From assembly GCA_947494305.1 (NCBI GenBank), contig CANLUL010000001.1, positions 1,178,001 through 1,242,000 on the forward strand: a stretch of 64,000 bases of DNA, in the 5' to 3' direction. The notes under the pieces are model-generated. The model saw only the letters and a program-made list of their open reading frames with translations. It was not told the DNA's origin and did not search any database. The stretch is from an uncultured Sphingomonadaceae bacterium. GTDB lineage: Bacteria; Pseudomonadota; Alphaproteobacteria; Sphingomonadales; Sphingomonadaceae. Below are positions 43,603-51,714 of this stretch, piece by piece (position 1 is the stretch's first letter; each line of letters opens with the position of its first letter). A program made the position numbers and the translations under genes.

Positions 43603-44889
43603 GTGGGCGAAGAAACAGCAAAATTCAATTTGGGCGGAAAAGAGCATGAATTTGCGGTGTTCAAAGGAACGGAAGGCCCTGATGTTGTCGATATCCGCAA
43701 GCTCTATGGTCAAACTGGTGCCTTCACCTATGATCCTGGATTTAAATCCACAGCGAGCTGTGAATCTGAGCTAACCTTCATCGATGGCGGTGAAGGCATT
43801 TTGCTCCATCGCGGTTATCCAATTGGACAGCTAGCTGAAAAAAGCAGCTTTATGGAAGTTGCGCATTTGCTTTTGCGCGGAGAGCTTCCAACCGCTGACG
43901 AATATGCCAGCTTCACCAACACGATCACACGGCACACAATGTTGCATGATCAATTCTCCACTTTTTACAACGGTTTCCGGCGTGACGCCCACCCGATGGC
44001 AATTATGTGCGGTGTAGTGGGTGCACTATCGGCTTTTTATCACGACAGCACCGATATCAGCGATCCTGAGCAACGAATGATTGCCAGCCATCGCCTAATC
44101 GCAAAAATGCCGACAATCGCCGCCATGGCTTACAAATATGCTGTGGGCCAACCGTTCATGCATCCGGATAACAGCCTTTCATACACCGGTAATTTCTTGC
44201 GCATGACGTTTGGCGTTCCGGCTGAACCATATGAAGTTATTCCCGCAGTTGAGCGCGCAATGGACAAGATTTTCATTCTGCATGCTGATCATGAGCAAAA
44301 TGCGTCAACTTCAACCGTTCGGCTTGCTGGTTCGTCCGGCGCGAACCCATTTGCGTGTATTGCGGCAGGCATAGCCTGCTTATGGGGCCCTGCGCATGGC
44401 GGTGCCAATGAAGCCGCTTTGAATATGCTGCATGAAATCGGAACGCCTGACCGCATTCCAGAATATATCGAACGCGCAAAAGACAAAAATGATCCATTCC
44501 GTCTGATGGGTTTTGGGCATCGTGTTTACAAAAATCATGACCCGCGTGCGACGGTGATGCAAAAAACAGTTCGCGAAGTATTTGATGCTCTGAAGGTCAC
44601 TGACCCAGTCTTTGAGGTTGCACTGCAACTTGAAGAAATGGCGCTCAACGATGACTATTTCAAAGAGAAGAAACTCTTCCCGAACGTTGATTTCTATTCC
44701 GGCATCATCCTGTCAGCAATAGGCTTCCCAACATCGATGTTCACAGCATTGTTCGCTTTGGCTCGCACCGTTGGGTGGGTTGCGCAGTGGAATGAGATGA
44801 TTTCCGACCCAGGTCAAGTTATCGGACGTCCACGTCAGCTTTACACTGGTCCAAATCAGCGCGATTATGTTGAGATTGGCGACCGGTAG
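43603..44889 (+). CDS. gltA: Citrate synthase
   Basis: Type II citrate synthase of 428 aa, condensing acetyl-CoA and oxaloacetate. [16 protein letters not shown] (about 67-82), [16 protein letters not shown] (active His near 226-229), [15 protein letters not shown] and [14 protein letters not shown] (active site) and the C-terminal [10 protein letters not shown] are all intact. Start GTG at 43603 after AAAGGACATAAAA. Terminated by a hairpin at 44912. Confidence 0.97.
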
Positions 44890-44911: not shown

Positions 44912-44939
44912 AAGGGAGCGTTATTCGCTCCCTTTTTTT
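44912..44939 (+). terminator. Rho-independent terminator of gltA, overlapping the 3' end of the next gene
   Basis: AAGGGAGCG-ttatt-CGCTCCC (about 44914-44932) followed by TTTTTTT. The right half lies inside the last codons of the convergent kinase-like gene, whose stop is at 44921-44923. Confidence 0.9.
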
Positions 44940-46318
44940 GTTCGCAATGGGAGAGAAAGCGTAAACGTTGCCCCCTTCCCCTTTGCGCTTTTCACAGACA
45001 AGCTGCCATCCATGGCTTTCGCCAATCGGCGGGAGATAAACAGTCCAAGACCACTTCCTCCATCACCAGAGCGACCCAGACGTTCAAATTTTTCAAATAT
45101 CTTGTGCTGATCCTCTTCGGGAATACCGTCACCCTGATCACTGACGGAAATCTCTGCTCTATCACCATTCCGATCAACCCGGATTTTAATTACCGAACCA
45201 TCCGGAGAATAGCGGATGGCATTGCCCAAAAGATTTACGAGAATTTGAAGAACTCTTCGAAATTCACCCAATGCCGGCATCTCACTATCTTCATCCGGCA
45301 AATCCACTCGAATTTGATGATCTGCTGCTTTTACCGTCAATAATCCCGACGCGCGGTGTGCCAAGTCGATCAAATCTATCTCATCAGGCGCAACCGTGAA
45401 TTCCGGACGCTCTATTGCTTCCAGGTCTGAAAGGTCGTTGACCAAATCCATCAGATGGCGGCCCGCCGCCGCGATGTCTTTTGCATAGCTGGCATAGTCG
45501 CCGCGAAGAGGACCTTCGAGCTGGCTACCAATAGTTTCAGCATTGGCAATGATTTTTCCAAGTGGTTGCCGCAATGCAGGACCAAGTTGCGCGCCGAACA
45601 AGGAATCGCTGATTAAACTAGGTTTTGTACTTTCAGAGTTTCCAGAATCTGAGCTTTCGTCATTCAGTTTCTCAACCGAGAACCGATACCCCGAATAGAC
45701 ACCCAAATTGTCGACAAGCGGTTGACCAGACAAGATATATTTAGAATCTGGGTCTAACAACAGAGATACATGGTGATTTCTGACCGGCTGACGTTCAGCG
45801 ATTGATTCAGTAAAAAGCGTTGGTTTTGAAGGCTTCACGACAGCGAACACATCAAGCAGAGCACTACCAATTGAATGCTCTGAAAGCCTAACCTTGCCCG
45901 GCAGGGAGATAGATGTAATCCGAAGAGCAGTATCGGTCCGAATCATTCCTCGCGCATTTAGTCTATCAAAATCACGCTGCCTTTGTTCGTCGTTATTATA
46001 GTTGCGTGAAAGAGGTGTTTCTTTCCAATCAACAATCGAAATGGACAATCCGCCGTCGCTGTCAGGCTCAATCCGCGTTTCAACCCAAAGGTTTAAATTG
46101 TTGTCATCATCCGCTGCTTTAACCGGGCGTGACAGGTTCATCCCCAGTTTTTTGCTCAATCTACATAAATTCGCAAGTTGAGGAATGGCCAGAGGACCAC
46201 CTTCAAAACCGCCACTGTGTAAATGTAATCGTAACAGTAATGGATCAGCGGAAACAAGCCGACCGTCAACATCCAGGCGCCCTTTAATTGGTTCTGCAAG
46301 ATTGTGTGCGGAAGACAT
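44921..46318 (-). CDS. Histidine-kinase-like protein without phospho-acceptor His
   Basis: Soluble protein of 465 aa, with no membrane segment. An N-terminal PAS-like region (about 1-230) leads to a HisKA-like helix pair (241-306) and an intact HATPase domain: N-box Asn366, DQGDGIP at 394-400, GGSGLGLF at 420-427. In the DHp first helix the expected S-H-E-L-R-T-P-L reads G-P-A-L-R-Q-P-L (246-253): Pro247 replaces His. ATP binding is likely but autophosphorylation on His is not. Its ATG overlaps the DUF2336 gene stop by one base (TAATG). Part of a minus-strand group with DUF2336, a degenerate transferase and an Hpt-like gene. Confidence 0.85.
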   Translation of the reverse strand: MSSAHNLAEPIKGRLDVDGRLVSADPLLLRLHLHSGGFEGGPLAIPQLANLCRLSKKLGMNLSRPVKAADDDNNLNLWVETRIEPDSDGGLSISIVDWKETPLSRNYNNDEQRQRDFDRLNARGMIRTDTALRITSISLPGKVRLSEHSIGSALLDVFAVVKPSKPTLFTESIAERQPVRNHHVSLLLDPDSKYILSGQPLVDNLGVYSGYRFSVEKLNDESSDSGNSESTKPSLISDSLFGAQLGPALRQPLGKIIANAETIGSQLEGPLRGDYASYAKDIAAAGRHLMDLVNDLSDLEAIERPEFTVAPDEIDLIDLAHRASGLLTVKAADHQIRVDLPDEDSEMPALGEFRRVLQILVNLLGNAIRYSPDGSVIKIRVDRNGDRAEISVSDQGDGIPEEDQHKIFEKFERLGRSGDGGSGLGLFISRRLAKAMDGSLSVKSAKGKGATFTLSLPLRTKKGSE

Positions 46319-47373
46319 TATCCGTCTATTTCCGGATGGTTGGAAGCCAATTTCCGTTCAGCGGTTTGGAATGCGGATGGCTTCGACCAGTTATCGGTCA
46401 TGACAATGGCCTGATCTCGGGATATCTCTTTGTAGGAAGCTGGCGTGAGAATATTACCGCTACCGTCAAGCGCCGTAAAAACCGAAATTGCATCAATCTC
46501 TGTGATACCCAAAGCGCGCATAACAACCACCAAGCGAGCCATATTCGGCTCTGCCGTGAATATCGTAAGTTGATTAATACTCAATTGGGAGCGCAACGCG
46601 ATACGCGCCAAGAAAAGATCCAACCCATCTTTTATTGGGTGAGGAATAGTCGCACTCGCTTCTGCGTGATCCAATAATCCTGCCAGGCGCTGTGCGCGGT
46701 TATCAATCGATTGACTTTCATCATGCCCCGCCAGCAACAATTCCGCTGCGGCCAGCAGTTTCGGTTCTGAACAGCCGGAAATTTTCTGAACAGCGGCCGT
46801 TACTGACCAAACTAGATCATGATAAATTTCTACCGGAACGTCTGACAATCGACATGAAATCTGCCCGATTTGAAATCCGGATCTGTTTCTAGACACCAGC
46901 AAAGCCATTGCCGCTTCTGCAACATTTTGATCTTCGTGATCGAGGTGACTTGCCAAGCTATTCTCAAGATTTTCCTGCGAAAATTTCTGTAGCAAACGAT
47001 TTGTTAGCTCAACCTTTTGTGCCTGAACGAATACATGTTCAAGCAAGTCGGATTGGTTCAGCAACCCCGCATTGCGGAGATGATCATGGCAATAGACCAT
47101 TGAGCTATTGCCAATTTCAACGATTGAAGCGTGAACGACGCCCAGATTCTCTACCGCTTTTAGGCAAAGTTGCGACTCAATTTCACCGATCATTGATCGT
47201 AGATATTGCCGAGAATTCGACAGTAATCTGTCGGATAAATATAGTCCGGATTCAGGAAAAAGTGCGTTGGAAAGATCGGATGTTAAAAAGGCACTGGACG
47301 CACCATATTCTCCTGCCTTTTTGGCAAGATCAAATCCGTCATTCTCAACCGCCGAAAAATCGCGTTTTTCCAT
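46318..47373 (-). CDS. DUF2336 domain protein
   Basis: 351-residue soluble protein of the alphaproteobacterial DUF2336 group, largely alpha-helical with repeated HEAT-like helices (for example LASHLDHEDQNVAEAAMALLV near residue 155). Function unknown; members occur with signalling genes. The start ATG at 47373 is 78 bases from the preceding gene, with a CtrA-like motif (47398-47412) in that gap. Its end is coupled to the kinase-like gene by a one-base overlap, so the products are likely partners. Confidence 0.75.
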   Translation of the reverse strand: MEKRDFSAVENDGFDLAKKAGEYGASSAFLTSDLSNALFPESGLYLSDRLLSNSRQYLRSMIGEIESQLCLKAVENLGVVHASIVEIGNSSMVYCHDHLRNAGLLNQSDLLEHVFVQAQKVELTNRLLQKFSQENLENSLASHLDHEDQNVAEAAMALLVSRNRSGFQIGQISCRLSDVPVEIYHDLVWSVTAAVQKISGCSEPKLLAAAELLLAGHDESQSIDNRAQRLAGLLDHAEASATIPHPIKDGLDLFLARIALRSQLSINQLTIFTAEPNMARLVVVMRALGITEIDAISVFTALDGSGNILTPASYKEISRDQAIVMTDNWSKPSAFQTAERKLASNHPEIDG

Positions 47374-47451
47374 AGCTTTCGCTGTAATCCAATGTGGTTA
47401 ATAACCTGCTAAGCTTCTTATCATCAATTGATCAAGGCTCTCACGCAGTAT

Positions 47452-48633
47452 TCACTCATCCGTTTGATCGAATTGACTGATCAACAAATAAGCCATTCCT
47501 AACAAAGCAATGACGTAGATTCCCAAAGTGAACGAACCAAAGATCGAGAATCCAAAAAGGATAACAAGCGACAACCCGATATCCGGTTTAGTCAAATCCC
47601 ATTTCGTCTCCACTGTGTTTCGATGGATCAACCAGGTTGTCCCGATTACCAACGCAAAAATTACAAGATTTGCTGGCATAGAAACAGGAATTGATTGTTG
47701 AATAGTGATCCCGGCAATAACGATGATCGAGATGATGAGGGTCGCTACAAACACCCCATCTATGCCTTTGTTAAAATTGGAAAATACTCCAATTTTTCCA
47801 TAAATATATACTATCAGCATTCCCAAAATAAGTAGGGCTATAGCCGCGACTACTGGTAGTTTTAGTAAGATCAAGCACCCTGCCAGAATTCCGGCAGCAG
47901 GCGCAGCCCACCCCAGATAGTTTCGTGCTGAAGGTGCTTTCCACAGTCTTGGCAGAAGCGTTTTGGTAAAAGGCCAGACCAAGGTTTTTTCGAGAATATT
48001 TCTGCGATTTCCCCCGACATACTGGAGGCACTTCTTTGAAAATTTAGAAATATCAGTGTCATCGGTCAAAACCGAAACTGCACCGTCAGATAAGTTCGAT
48101 TCTGTTACCACTTCCCTAATACATCCAGATTGCACCGCACCGCGTAACAACGCTGACCCTACATCCCAATCTTCTGGAAGATCGATAAATTCAGATAATC
48201 TGGACGTCTTCAACTTGGCGACCCCAAGCCAACGATCATTTCGATCAATGCGCTCAAACTCCGTCGCTTGCGGTGACTCCGGCGTAACGAATATAATTTC
48301 ACCCTGGAAGCTGGATAACTTTTCGATTGTGCTGCGATCAGGCAAAATACCGTCGTTCAAATATATGAGTTCATTTTCCGGCGCTACAAACTGCACCAAA
48401 TCATGACCGCTTCTAACGATCTCTATGTCGATGCCCTGCCCCTGCAACCTATCGACATATTGCAAAACCATATTGTTCATGGTTGGGGAAACCAATATTA
48501 TCTTATTGGCCCCGGCGTTTACAACCGACTGAATTTGTTGATCAATTACATGCCCATCAAAAAGCGGTAACAGCCCAATAGGGCCCGAATTATCTGGCAA
48601 ATCCTTGGACAGGGAAATCAGAGCCAGCTTCAC
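47452..48633 (-). CDS. Membrane protein resembling a cytidylyltransferase/CDP-alcohol phosphotransferase fusion, catalytic motifs missing
   Basis: 393-residue protein (from GTG at 48633, which follows GAGG at eight bases; GTG codons at 48636 and 48642 are alternatives). The N-terminal half looks like a GT-A fold (LPLFDGHVIDQQIQSVVNAGANKIILVSP, then LIYLNDGILPD) but lacks the GxGTR loop. After a LWKAPSARNYLGW linker the C-terminal half has about five membrane helices, laid out as in IPCT-DIPPS proteins that make inositol phosphodiesters, yet without DGxxARxxxxxxxxGxxxDxxxD. So it appears catalytically inactive. The similarity is by architecture and weak sequence only. Confidence 0.6.
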   Translation of the reverse strand: MKLALISLSKDLPDNSGPIGLLPLFDGHVIDQQIQSVVNAGANKIILVSPTMNNMVLQYVDRLQGQGIDIEIVRSGHDLVQFVAPENELIYLNDGILPDRSTIEKLSSFQGEIIFVTPESPQATEFERIDRNDRWLGVAKLKTSRLSEFIDLPEDWDVGSALLRGAVQSGCIREVVTESNLSDGAVSVLTDDTDISKFSKKCLQYVGGNRRNILEKTLVWPFTKTLLPRLWKAPSARNYLGWAAPAAGILAGCLILLKLPVVAAIALLILGMLIVYIYGKIGVFSNFNKGIDGVFVATLIISIIVIAGITIQQSIPVSMPANLVIFALVIGTTWLIHRNTVETKWDLTKPDIGLSLVILFGFSIFGSFTLGIYVIALLGMAYLLISQFDQTDE

Positions 48634-48727
48634 CACATACACCTCGCAACACCTGCGGATAGCTAATAGTGGTTGGACTTCCTATTGCAAAGCGATTTGG
48701 TAGAGAAAACTGACCGTCAAAAAGAAA

Positions 48728-49036
48728 TCAATCTCGATGCGCTTCGATTGCAGCAATCGCACGTTCCAGTTTCCGTAAGATGACAGGATCACCTGGAGCA
48801 GAACGCGCAGCGTCATCGGCTAGATCCAAAAGATTGGTTGCACCAAAGCTCGCTGCCAGACCTTTAAGCCGCCATGCGGCATATTCCCAATTGGCGTCAC
48901 AGCGCGAACGATGCAGCAGATCAACCTGCCGATTTGCGCTTTCCAGGAATGCTGTTCGTAGTTCTGCAATTAGTGACTGATCATCGCCAACTGCGGCCGT
49001 CAAAGCGGCATCTAAAGCTCCATAGTCGAAAGACAT
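48728..49036 (-). CDS. Hpt-domain-like protein with Trp in place of the phospho-His
   Basis: 102-residue helical protein. It has the Hpt core with A-A-W-R-L-K-G-L-A-A-S-F-G-A at 53-66, matching AHxLKGxxxxxGA, but the phosphorylated His is Trp55 (codon TGG). It starts at ATG 49036 with no clear Shine-Dalgarno. It is the promoter-proximal gene of the minus-strand group and diverges from the coiled-coil gene by 69 bases. A binding or competing role is more likely than phosphotransfer. Confidence 0.72.
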   Translation of the reverse strand: MSFDYGALDAALTAAVGDDQSLIAELRTAFLESANRQVDLLHRSRCDANWEYAAWRLKGLAASFGATNLLDLADDAARSAPGDPVILRKLERAIAAIEAHRD

Positions 49037-49105
49037 ATGTGCGTTATATACGCCGTATAGTTAACTAATGGTTTCTCGATCAGAAAATTATGGTAAATAA
49101 GATGC

Positions 49106-51442
49106 ATGACAGGTGGATCAAAGATAATTGGCATGTGGAAAGATCGGGATGAGAATACCGATCCTGATACCGAACATGCGGAAGAATTGGAAAACAGCGA
49201 CACCCTAGTTCTGGGTATTGGAGATCGCGCTTTTTCTGCGGAAAATGAGTCAGTTAGCACTGAAAGTGCAGAAGACGACTGGGGTGAGTATTACGAGGCT
49301 GAAACCCCAAATGTGGCAATCGGCACAAAAATTGAGATCGCATTGGTTTCGATTTTGGCAGCTGGTTGGACTGGTTTTTTTCTCTGGGTTAACCGCGACA
49401 TTTTTACAACATTGGTGCCCGCAGAAACAGCCATAGCTCTAGTGTCACAATGGAGCATGCCGTTAATCTTGATTGCTGTTTTCCATTTGCTGTTCACGCG
49501 CAACAGCATCAAGGAAACCAATCGCTTTGCTGATGCCGCCAGTTCGCTACGGACCGAGTCCGAACAGCTTGAAGCTCGTCTAAAGACCGTCAACAATGAA
49601 CTGACCATAGCTCGTGAATTTCTGGCCAATGAGACACGTGAATTGGAATTTCTTGGGGATCAATCCTCCCAGAAACTGACGACGGCGGCCGATCGGATCA
49701 AATCTTCCTTGGAAGATGGTCTCTCAAGCATGCGAAAATTGGATGAAGTTGGAGAATCTGCTTTTAACAATCTGGACCAGCTAAGAGAGCATCTTCCCGT
49801 TGTCATCAACACGGCGAAAGATGTGACCAACCAGATTGGCAATACAGGCCGCGCATCACAAACCGAAATGGCGGCTATGGTCGCTACCCTTAAAAGGGTG
49901 GGCGAAGTTGGTACCAGTGCAAAACAGAGCATTGACGGCTTAACCGAAAGCTCCAATCAATCTCTTACCAAATTGACCGAGTTGGCCGATGAAGCCAAAA
50001 CCTCATTCGCAAATCAGTTTTCAGAATCTGAAAATGAAGCGCAACGCATTTCCAAAGTCTTGCAGGACAGTGCCGGAGAAGTCATCGAGGCGCTTCAGTC
50101 TACTCGTGCGGAATTGGCGGCTGAGACAGCGACTTCTGCAAAGGCTATCAAAACCGAATTGGAGGACTTGGAAGCCACTTTAGCAGATTTGGGCAAAACC
50201 GCAGATGAAGAGGAAATGCGATTAAAAGCGCTAATCACCGAACTTCAACAGGCCATTGCAACAATCAATGAAGATGTTTCCAGTTTAGACAATGAAAGCG
50301 GAGAAAAAACAGCAAAGCTAGCATTTGCGCTAAAAGCAATGGAAGAAAATAATTCTTCGCTTCGAGAGAGTCTAGAGCAAGGCCATGGCGTTGCTGACGG
50401 TATGATCGAAAGAATGGAGAAATTGCTGCAGGCACTCGATAGCAGCACACGCGAAATGGATGAAACCATTCCTGCTGCCCTGCAACGCGTTGATGATCAT
50501 AGCCAAACCAGCATGATCGCTCTCGAAAAGTTGAATGAAGAGGCAACGGCAGCCGGTGCCAAAGCCGACGCAATAGCGACACAGATAGAGCAGACAAATA
50601 CTTCGCTTGAAGATCAAAACATGCGCTTGACGGCTTTGAAAGATGATGGCGCCGCGATCTCCGACGACTTATTGTCTCAAATCAGCAATTTGACGGCGCA
50701 GCTGAAAGACGTCCAAACCCAAAACGAAGCTTTAACTGAAAGCGCTGGAGAAAAGCTTATCAATGCACTTTTGCGGGTCAGAGAAACGGCTAAGCAAGCA
50801 TCTGAACATAGCCGGGAAGCCTTGGAAAAATCGATCACTGGATCGGCGGAAAAGTTTGAGCAAATTAGCGAAGAAACTCTAAACCGGATCATCGATGAGA
50901 AAATCGGCTCGATCGCGCCAAAACTGGAAGAGGCCGTTGCCAATGCCGTTGCGACGACCGAAACTACTGCTGGTCATCTTGCAGGTCAGTTAAACTCAAT
51001 TGAGGAAATGACCACCCAGCTTGAACAGCGGATATTGTTCGCGAAAGAAAAAGCCGAACAAAGCAGCGAGGAGAATTTCACACGGCGTGTTGCTCTACTG
51101 ACTGAATCGCTCAACTCAACAGCCATTGATGTTAGCAAAATTCTGTCCAACGACGTCACAGACACCGAATGGGCCGCCTATCTAAAAGGTGATCGCGGAA
51201 TATTTACCCGCCGCGCAGTGCGGTTACTCGACAGCGGAGAAGTGCGGGAAATTCTTACACAGTATGATGCCAATGATGAATTCCGTGAACATGTAAACCG
51301 CTATATTCACGACTTCGAAGCAATGTTGCGTGGGGTGTTATCCACCCGCGATGGAAGCGCTATTAGCGTTACCCTGCTCTCTTCAGATATTGGGAAGCTC
51401 TATGTTGCCTTGGCACAAGCGATCGAGCGCTTGCGAGCTTAA
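49106..51442 (+). CDS. Two-TM long coiled-coil protein of unknown function
   Basis: 778-residue protein. An acidic N-terminal stretch (about 1-70) precedes two membrane helices (about 76-95 and 107-131), then a very long helical, Glu/Ala/Lys/Thr-rich region (about 135-690) with heptad-like spacing, e.g. AIEKLNEEATAAGAKAD-type repeats, and a globular C-terminal part (about 695-778). The arrangement resembles chemoreceptors or membrane scaffold proteins, but I see no receptor signalling hairpin. ATG at 49106; ATG at 49133 is an alternative. It diverges from the Hpt-like gene. Its 3' end overlaps the convergent DUF1467 gene by 4 bases. Confidence 0.75.
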   Translation: MTGGSKIIGMWKDRDENTDPDTEHAEELENSDTLVLGIGDRAFSAENESVSTESAEDDWGEYYEAETPNVAIGTKIEIALVSILAAGWTGFFLWVNRDIFTTLVPAETAIALVSQWSMPLILIAVFHLLFTRNSIKETNRFADAASSLRTESEQLEARLKTVNNELTIAREFLANETRELEFLGDQSSQKLTTAADRIKSSLEDGLSSMRKLDEVGESAFNNLDQLREHLPVVINTAKDVTNQIGNTGRASQTEMAAMVATLKRVGEVGTSAKQSIDGLTESSNQSLTKLTELADEAKTSFANQFSESENEAQRISKVLQDSAGEVIEALQSTRAELAAETATSAKAIKTELEDLEATLADLGKTADEEEMRLKALITELQQAIATINEDVSSLDNESGEKTAKLAFALKAMEENNSSLRESLEQGHGVADGMIERMEKLLQALDSSTREMDETIPAALQRVDDHSQTSMIALEKLNEEATAAGAKADAIATQIEQTNTSLEDQNMRLTALKDDGAAISDDLLSQISNLTAQLKDVQTQNEALTESAGEKLINALLRVRETAKQASEHSREALEKSITGSAEKFEQISEETLNRIIDEKIGSIAPKLEEAVANAVATTETTAGHLAGQLNSIEEMTTQLEQRILFAKEKAEQSSEENFTRRVALLTESLNSTAIDVSKILSNDVTDTEWAAYLKGDRGIFTRRAVRLLDSGEVREILTQYDANDEFREHVNRYIHDFEAMLRGVLSTRDGSAISVTLLSSDIGKLYVALAQAIERLRA

Positions 51443-51714
51443 AGCCGATCGCGCGCACCAAAAAAGTCGATGTCATCGACGGTTATCCAGCCATTGACAT
51501 AGTTGAAATAAAACAAAACGAACAAAGTTGTAGCCAATAATGTGGTGCGCAATAGCACTTGCAAGGGCCTAAAATTAGTTGGTGCACCATCGGCTTGCCC
51601 ATCAACCATCTGTTCACCGGTTTCAAAATGGTTCTTTATTCCCACCGGCAATATGAGAAATGCTGCAAGCACCCAGAACAAGACATAGATCGCAACAATT
51701 GAAGTCCATTCCAT
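51439..51714 (-). CDS. DUF1467 family membrane protein
   Basis: 91-residue protein with two membrane helices (about residues 5-26 and 55-75). The N-terminal VLFWVLAAFLILPVGIK and the TNFRPLQVLLRTTLLATTLF segment are typical of DUF1467, a small alphaproteobacterial family next to rnj or nuo genes. Function unknown. It follows the ribonuclease J gene by six bases on the same strand. Confidence 0.85.
   Translation of the reverse strand: MEWTSIVAIYVLFWVLAAFLILPVGIKNHFETGEQMVDGQADGAPTNFRPLQVLLRTTLLATTLFVLFYFNYVNGWITVDDIDFFGARDRL

Follow-up and report, generated by a model that had tools for sequence, protein, structure and literature searches.

How a cluster of signalling genes can be maintained when several of its products lack the residues on which their chemistry would depend is the question raised by a five-gene locus in a 64,000-nucleotide stretch from an uncultured Sphingomonadaceae bacterium (GCA_947494305.1, contig CANLUL010000001.1, positions 1,178,001 to 1,242,000), referred to here as the window. 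The genes encode a histidine kinase-like (HK) protein, a DUF2336-related protein, a membrane pseudoenzyme, an Hpt-like protein and a long coiled-coil (CC) protein. Across loci of the window's type, the HK, Hpt and membrane proteins retain fold and sequence and lack catalytic residues, and they do so under constraint, which is the firmest step of the analysis. We tentatively read the cluster as a membrane-attached, non-catalytic signalling scaffold built on the CC protein, an interpretation with a real chance of being right that nevertheless stops short of probable. The features concerned are as follows.

44921..46318, minus strand: HK-like gene, 465 amino acids (aa)
46318..47373, minus strand: DUF2336-related gene, 351 aa, divergent in sequence
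47452..48642, minus strand: membrane pseudoenzyme gene, 396 aa
48728..49036, minus strand: Hpt-like gene, 102 aa
49106..51442, plus strand: CC gene, divergent from the other four
51014..51442, plus strand: conserved C-terminal domain of the CC protein, 142 aa, no Pfam family match
43603..44889, plus strand: gltA (citrate synthase), the usual neighbour of the five-gene set

The original prediction, made from the sequence of the window alone, had described four minus-strand genes and one divergent gene, and all of these open reading frames (ORFs) were recovered. The start of the HK gene overlaps the stop of the DUF2336-related gene by one base, the remaining intergenic gaps measure 78, 85 and 69 bases, and the set is flanked by gltA, which probably lies outside it, on one side and by a DUF1467-rnj-coaX block on the other. 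The DUF1467 gene (51439-51714, opposite strand to the CC gene) overlaps the CC end by four bases.

Conservation was assessed in 92 loci, comprising the window, 11 contigs from a genome-contig scan (18 loci, less seven distant kinase-only loci that were left out) and 80 stretches from further genomes; as the stretches were picked by matches to the window's own proteins, this sampling favours window-type sequences. The order HK, DUF2336, membrane protein, Hpt, CC is kept in 68 of the 92, counting L125, where other genes intervene. Members were not detected in 4 (HK), 7 (DUF2336), 6 (membrane protein), 12 (Hpt) and 9 (CC) stretches, partly because stretches end early, and a few DUF2336 matches are weak. 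Given this shared order, together with the entropy contrast between the Hpt His column and its neighbours described below, the arrangement is not due to chance. Nor is it indivisible, since Hpt adjoins CC with the HK located elsewhere (e.g., G042, G044 and G091), and in seven loci (L229, L231-L235, L242) a membrane protein without a CDP core adjoins CC with neither HK nor Hpt seen at the thresholds used. Because these seven loci keep that pair, the membrane protein and CC may form the core of the set. The co-conservation that the original prediction proposed to look for is supported.

The HK-like protein matches HATPase_c with 104.4 bits (Pfam cut-off 26.4) and HisKA with 25.5, just below the cut-off of 26.9; its structure model matches the structures of HK853 and DivL (4q20), and two alpha/beta modules predicted at its N-terminus appear to be PAS-like. 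In the DHp of the window's protein, Pro replaces the His of SHELRTPL. Among 88 aligned HKs, only that of L125 has His at the phospho-acceptor site; the other 87 carry Pro (61) or R, A, G, Q, E, N, K, V or S, and keep the N, G1, F and G2 ATP-binding boxes by pattern in 81, 86, 84 and 86 cases, so that of the features of an active kinase the ATP-binding boxes are present and the phospho-acceptor His is missing. In 17 further HKs, from genomes listed by a profile search of 119 family genomes and examined in addition to the first 87, the site holds P (5), R (3), K (2), Q (2), His (2) and A, T and D (1 each). The two His-bearing proteins, from one genus, are encoded at L250 3898-5322 and L261 8294-9748 and have the stretch RIDHSFK. 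Pro itself is not a conserved feature of the site.

A parallel picture emerges for the Hpt-like protein, which scores 18.4 bits against a Pfam cut-off of 24.6 and whose membership of the sequence family is supported by profile comparison with His-bearing Hpts (prob 98.7, E 3.6e-16). Trp stands at its phospho-His site. His is found in two of 80 aligned sequences (L125 and L075); with L125 set aside, the site holds L (24), W (15), M (15), Q (14) and others, His, the acceptor residue in HxLKG, being present in 1 of 79. Across these 79 sequences the entropy of the His column is 2.69 bits, versus 0.46 and 0.10 at the adjoining columns. Because the site drifts among homologues, Trp was rejected as a functional residue, and it is not itself a conserved feature. 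Both substitutions, and the intact HATPase, had been called correctly for the window.

All five genes show a ratio of nonsynonymous to synonymous substitution rates (dN/dS) below 0.5, and mostly below 0.25, in eight close pairs, with the caveats that dS is high in some pairs, that one DUF2336 pair gave no value and that ORF starts were set mechanically. A recent loss or decay in the window, which the original prediction had tied to canonical His in close homologues, was rejected: His is missing nearly throughout the window-type loci, and selection is purifying. Close homologues lack the canonical His and other members of the same family carry it; therefore the loss is not recent in the window.

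The DUF2336 protein scores 20.9 bits, below the PF10098 gathering score of 34.6, and its assigned identity is upheld by remote homology to strong DUF2336 proteins (profile comparison, prob 99.3, E 2.2e-20). A literature search found no paper mentioning DUF2336, nor one mentioning Sphingomonadaceae together with pseudokinase.

The membrane protein combines an NTP-transferase-like N-terminal half with a helical, CDP-alcohol-phosphotransferase-like half, and the fold of both matches IPCT-DIPPS (PDB 4mnd; NCBIfam NF041135), although sequence searches of Pfam and the PDB gave no match at E<=1. The corresponding catalytic motifs are DxxDGxxAR...GxxxDxxxD (CDP-alcohol) and GxGxR...K (NTP transferase). 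As had been proposed, neither signature is present: a pattern search found each full motif in 0 of 86 membrane proteins, the loose sub-patterns DGxxAR and GxGxR occurring in 5 and 12 of them and a relaxed CDP core in L125 only, with L249 alone among 13 further proteins. Cytidylyltransferase activity is unlikely, as the full NTP motif is absent even from CDP-core proteins (four tested plus L125); the CDP-core protein of L249 has no GxGxR. The N-terminal half has acquired new near-invariant positions, e.g., the ERID..WxG stretch. In contrast to IPCT-DIPPS, the protein lacks both catalytic signatures and the window copy has no inositol genes beside it; the shared two-half architecture and fold support an inositol-lipid enzyme ancestry.

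The CC protein agrees with the two-transmembrane coiled-coil architecture originally suggested, hydropathy placing two hydrophobic regions at about 70-94 and 108-126 ahead of a long coiled coil with weak coiled-coil-type matches (apolipoprotein and SMC-like). Its architecture is TipN/GPR-like, a likeness drawn from hydropathy and descriptions rather than from sequences, the size and transmembrane layout of TipN being general background. PMC7327166 describes RgsE/GPR as very large growth-pole proteins (GPR/RgsE about 2,100 aa), RgsE having two predicted transmembrane helices and an apolipoprotein-like, SMC-like coiled coil. CC, GPR/RgsE and TipN share a membrane-anchored cytoplasmic coiled coil, and GPR/RgsE differs in its size; Pfam apolipoprotein repeats match weakly in one of four long CC homologues and not in the 1,990-aa homologue of L185. 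Of 240 alphaproteobacterial genomes, 89 carry the C-terminal domain (three of these from the window's family), as do 133 of 147 genomes of the order and 117 of 119 of the family; a PDB sequence search with its profile returned four matches, none better than E 0.29. Neither the scaffold-like family to which CC belongs nor the inositol-lipid ancestry of its neighbour had been read from the window.

Part of the same family carries a His-bearing HK-DUF2336 pair, or a CDP-core inositol-lipid set, near CC or at the gltA-rnj site. In L125 (genome G085), near gltA, an HK with SHELRTPL is accompanied by a strong DUF2336 protein (178.8 bits), a Wzi-like protein, an NTP transferase, an inositol-phosphate synthase, a CDP-core membrane protein, a second CDP-alcohol enzyme, a His-bearing Hpt and the CC start. 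A SHELRTPL kinase lies beside DUF2336 in six genomes (G085, G052, G040, G056, G012, G007), the six ORFs spanning 365 to 901 aa, so that some are not plain full-length copies; His-bearing Hpts occur in G085, G005, G099, G056 and G040, with a short one in G007. Six membrane-protein homologues (L125, L241, L243, L244, L245, L249) have D..DG..AR and a GDLEHV(A/L)DK second half, with inositol-phosphate synthase close by in all six and a separate NTP-transferase gene near the membrane protein in five, none being seen in L244. As the second motif half departs from classical spacing, these proteins are only putatively active, judging from their sequences. Inositol-phosphate synthase, NTP transferase, CDP-alcohol and Wzi-like genes lie near CC in varying combinations at L125 7449-13047, L249 7092-12717, L241, L243, L244 and L245.

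Mixed states are also found. The gltA-rnj interval of G017 (L249), in which no Hpt was detected, has an HK whose His site carries Asp; DUF2336, Wzi and CC share the interval with an NTP transferase, an inositol-phosphate synthase, a second CDP enzyme and the CDP-core membrane protein. In G012, G056 and G052 the HK keeps its His and no CDP core was found; therefore the order of loss varies between lineages.

Beyond the family, 12 sister-family loci (two of them short contigs) contain a receiver and a second Hpt in 10, DUF2336 in 8 and the first Hpt in 6, counts for which the receiver, second-Hpt, His-Hpt and strong-DUF2336 profiles were built partly from the loci counted. The L205 receiver reaches 72.8 bits against PF00072; the second Hpt falls below the Pfam cut-off in the two copies tested and has His in all seven aligned (AHD(M/L)(K/Q)GQGGTFGY). 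FlbT and FlaF are present in L205, flagellin-like neighbours in other loci being recognised by eye, and receiver and second Hpt are also close to CC in G040, G056, G052 and G007. Other families of the class contributed 20 loci, and six of these have an Hpt match near CC, in every case with His. In L204-L212 and L215, CC, the receiver and the second His-bearing Hpt form a module that extends across the order and often includes the first Hpt and DUF2336. Neighbours, folds and mixed states together support descent of the cluster from a scaffold-linked phosphorelay and inositol-lipid gene set.

Trees were built from gltX, gltA, rnj and coaX and rooted on eight sister-family loci, a first tree with CC as sole outgroup marker having rooted the family unreliably. 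The near-identical L033, L034, L035, L036, L037, L038 and L040, and loci with too few markers (including L075), were left out of the two later trees, and none of the trees includes G052, G007 or L075. One group of 14 loci gathers most of the genomes that bear His or the CDP core, with a support of 0.994 and then 1.0 in the enlarged tree, its membership partly different. In the 0.994-support tree its sister consists of 81 window-type loci (support 0.58; 0.83 in an earlier, smaller tree), with G077 outside. If the group is real, G017, placed next to G085, points to a parallel disappearance of the kinase His on at least one occasion.

Mechanistically, once the receiver was lost, the His sites would have been free to drift, with the proteins retained because they bind partners. 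On binding ATP, the pseudo-kinase would undergo a shape change together with its N-terminal modules, docking would fall to the Hpt-like and DUF2336 proteins as adaptors, CC would have the dead IPCT-DIPPS as its partner in the membrane, and the assembled set may place or time a process at the pole or in division. The least secure elements are the gating by ATP and the placement at the pole. The original prediction is supported in part, namely in the co-conservation, the widespread lack of catalytic residues, the intact ATP boxes and the membrane proteins in the set; the ATP-gated complex that it envisaged is putative. The broader proposition, that a phosphorelay and inositol-lipid neighbourhood at a polar scaffold was converted within one family, through several loss orders and with surviving intermediates, into a pseudoenzyme complex signalling by ATP-driven shape change and docking instead of phosphate transfer, is possible but doubtful.

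Several observations weigh against the scaffold interpretation. Profile searches of the 119 family genomes, with differing thresholds and models built from window-type rows, which favour that type, detected CC in 117 and the membrane protein in 109, but HK in only 95 and Hpt in only 77; therefore neither of the latter is indispensable. The window-type HKs of G024 and G109 have His in an otherwise window-like stretch, and the window-type locus L075 pairs a His-bearing Hpt with an HK in which the site is Val. Low dN/dS cannot say which function is kept. With 14 of the 17 further loci added, the His/CDP group nests among window-type loci and G012 moves; because its position is unstable, a single loss at the base of a 'dead clade' is not supported and was dropped.

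The rival that survives best supposes that the dead HK and Hpt act as a decoy, sensing or sequestering a phosphorylated receiver encoded elsewhere, with the membrane protein a separate anchor, so that the system stays tied to a phosphorelay without chemistry of its own; we consider it unlikely, though a serious contender. Precedent exists in AHP6, a plant pseudo-HPt and cytokinin inhibitor, which resembles the Hpt-like protein in having the fold without the His and differs in having no common genomic context. The match of the HK model to HK853 and DivL, and the conserved flanks of both His columns, fit such a role. Caulobacter DivL is devoid of kinase and of phosphatase activity, its ATP binding is weak, and it stabilises DivK~P (PMC4211667). 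DivL, which acts in cell-cycle signalling, shares an HK fold without phospho-His, but it is one dead kinase in a live relay, whereas here catalytic residues are missing from HK, Hpt and lipid enzyme alike and the neighbourhood has no receiver. Against the decoy, the ATP boxes are intact here, unlike the weak ATP binding of DivL, and the sister-family-type receiver and second Hpt were found in 0 of the 92 first loci and 0 of 17 further, a search confined to the loci.

That the genes are mere neighbours with separate roles in a slowly rearranging gltX-gltA...rnj region is improbable. Conservation of order is shared by gltX, gltA, rnj and coaX, and the membrane protein is kept where HK and Hpt are missing; against this, all five genes stay together without gltA in five loci (L063, L065, L117, L056, L121), the first three also without rnj, which the other two keep, and Hpt-CC and HK-DUF2336-membrane protein are found as separate pieces. 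Hidden catalysis, with the kinase phosphorylating a different residue or protein, or the membrane protein retaining a modified activity on lipids or nucleotides, is very improbable: intact HATPase boxes, the ERID..WxG positions and His in two HKs of one genus speak for it, but the full motifs are absent from all 86 membrane proteins, the relaxed core is confined to L125 and, of the 13 further, L249, and the lost His position drifts in Hpt.

PMC7083601 describes TipN and PodJ as polar coiled-coil scaffolds and the Caulobacter citrate synthase CitA as controlling the cell cycle, CitA having come out of a reporter screen on a tipN cpdR double mutant; that gltA adjoins the five-gene set is, given this role, suggestive only.

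Pseudoenzymes of these kinds are already known singly, DivL among the kinases and AHP6 among the Hpts. What the family described here adds is a conserved neighbourhood whose kinase, Hpt and lipid enzyme are all without catalytic residues, alongside relatives that look working or mixed (a dead kinase with the lipid set retained in G017; a His kinase with the CDP motif missing in G012, G056 and G052), giving a series from catalytic signalling to scaffolding. The CC C-terminus would be a widespread scaffold domain without a Pfam family, whose role can be tested in ordinary laboratory sphingomonads.

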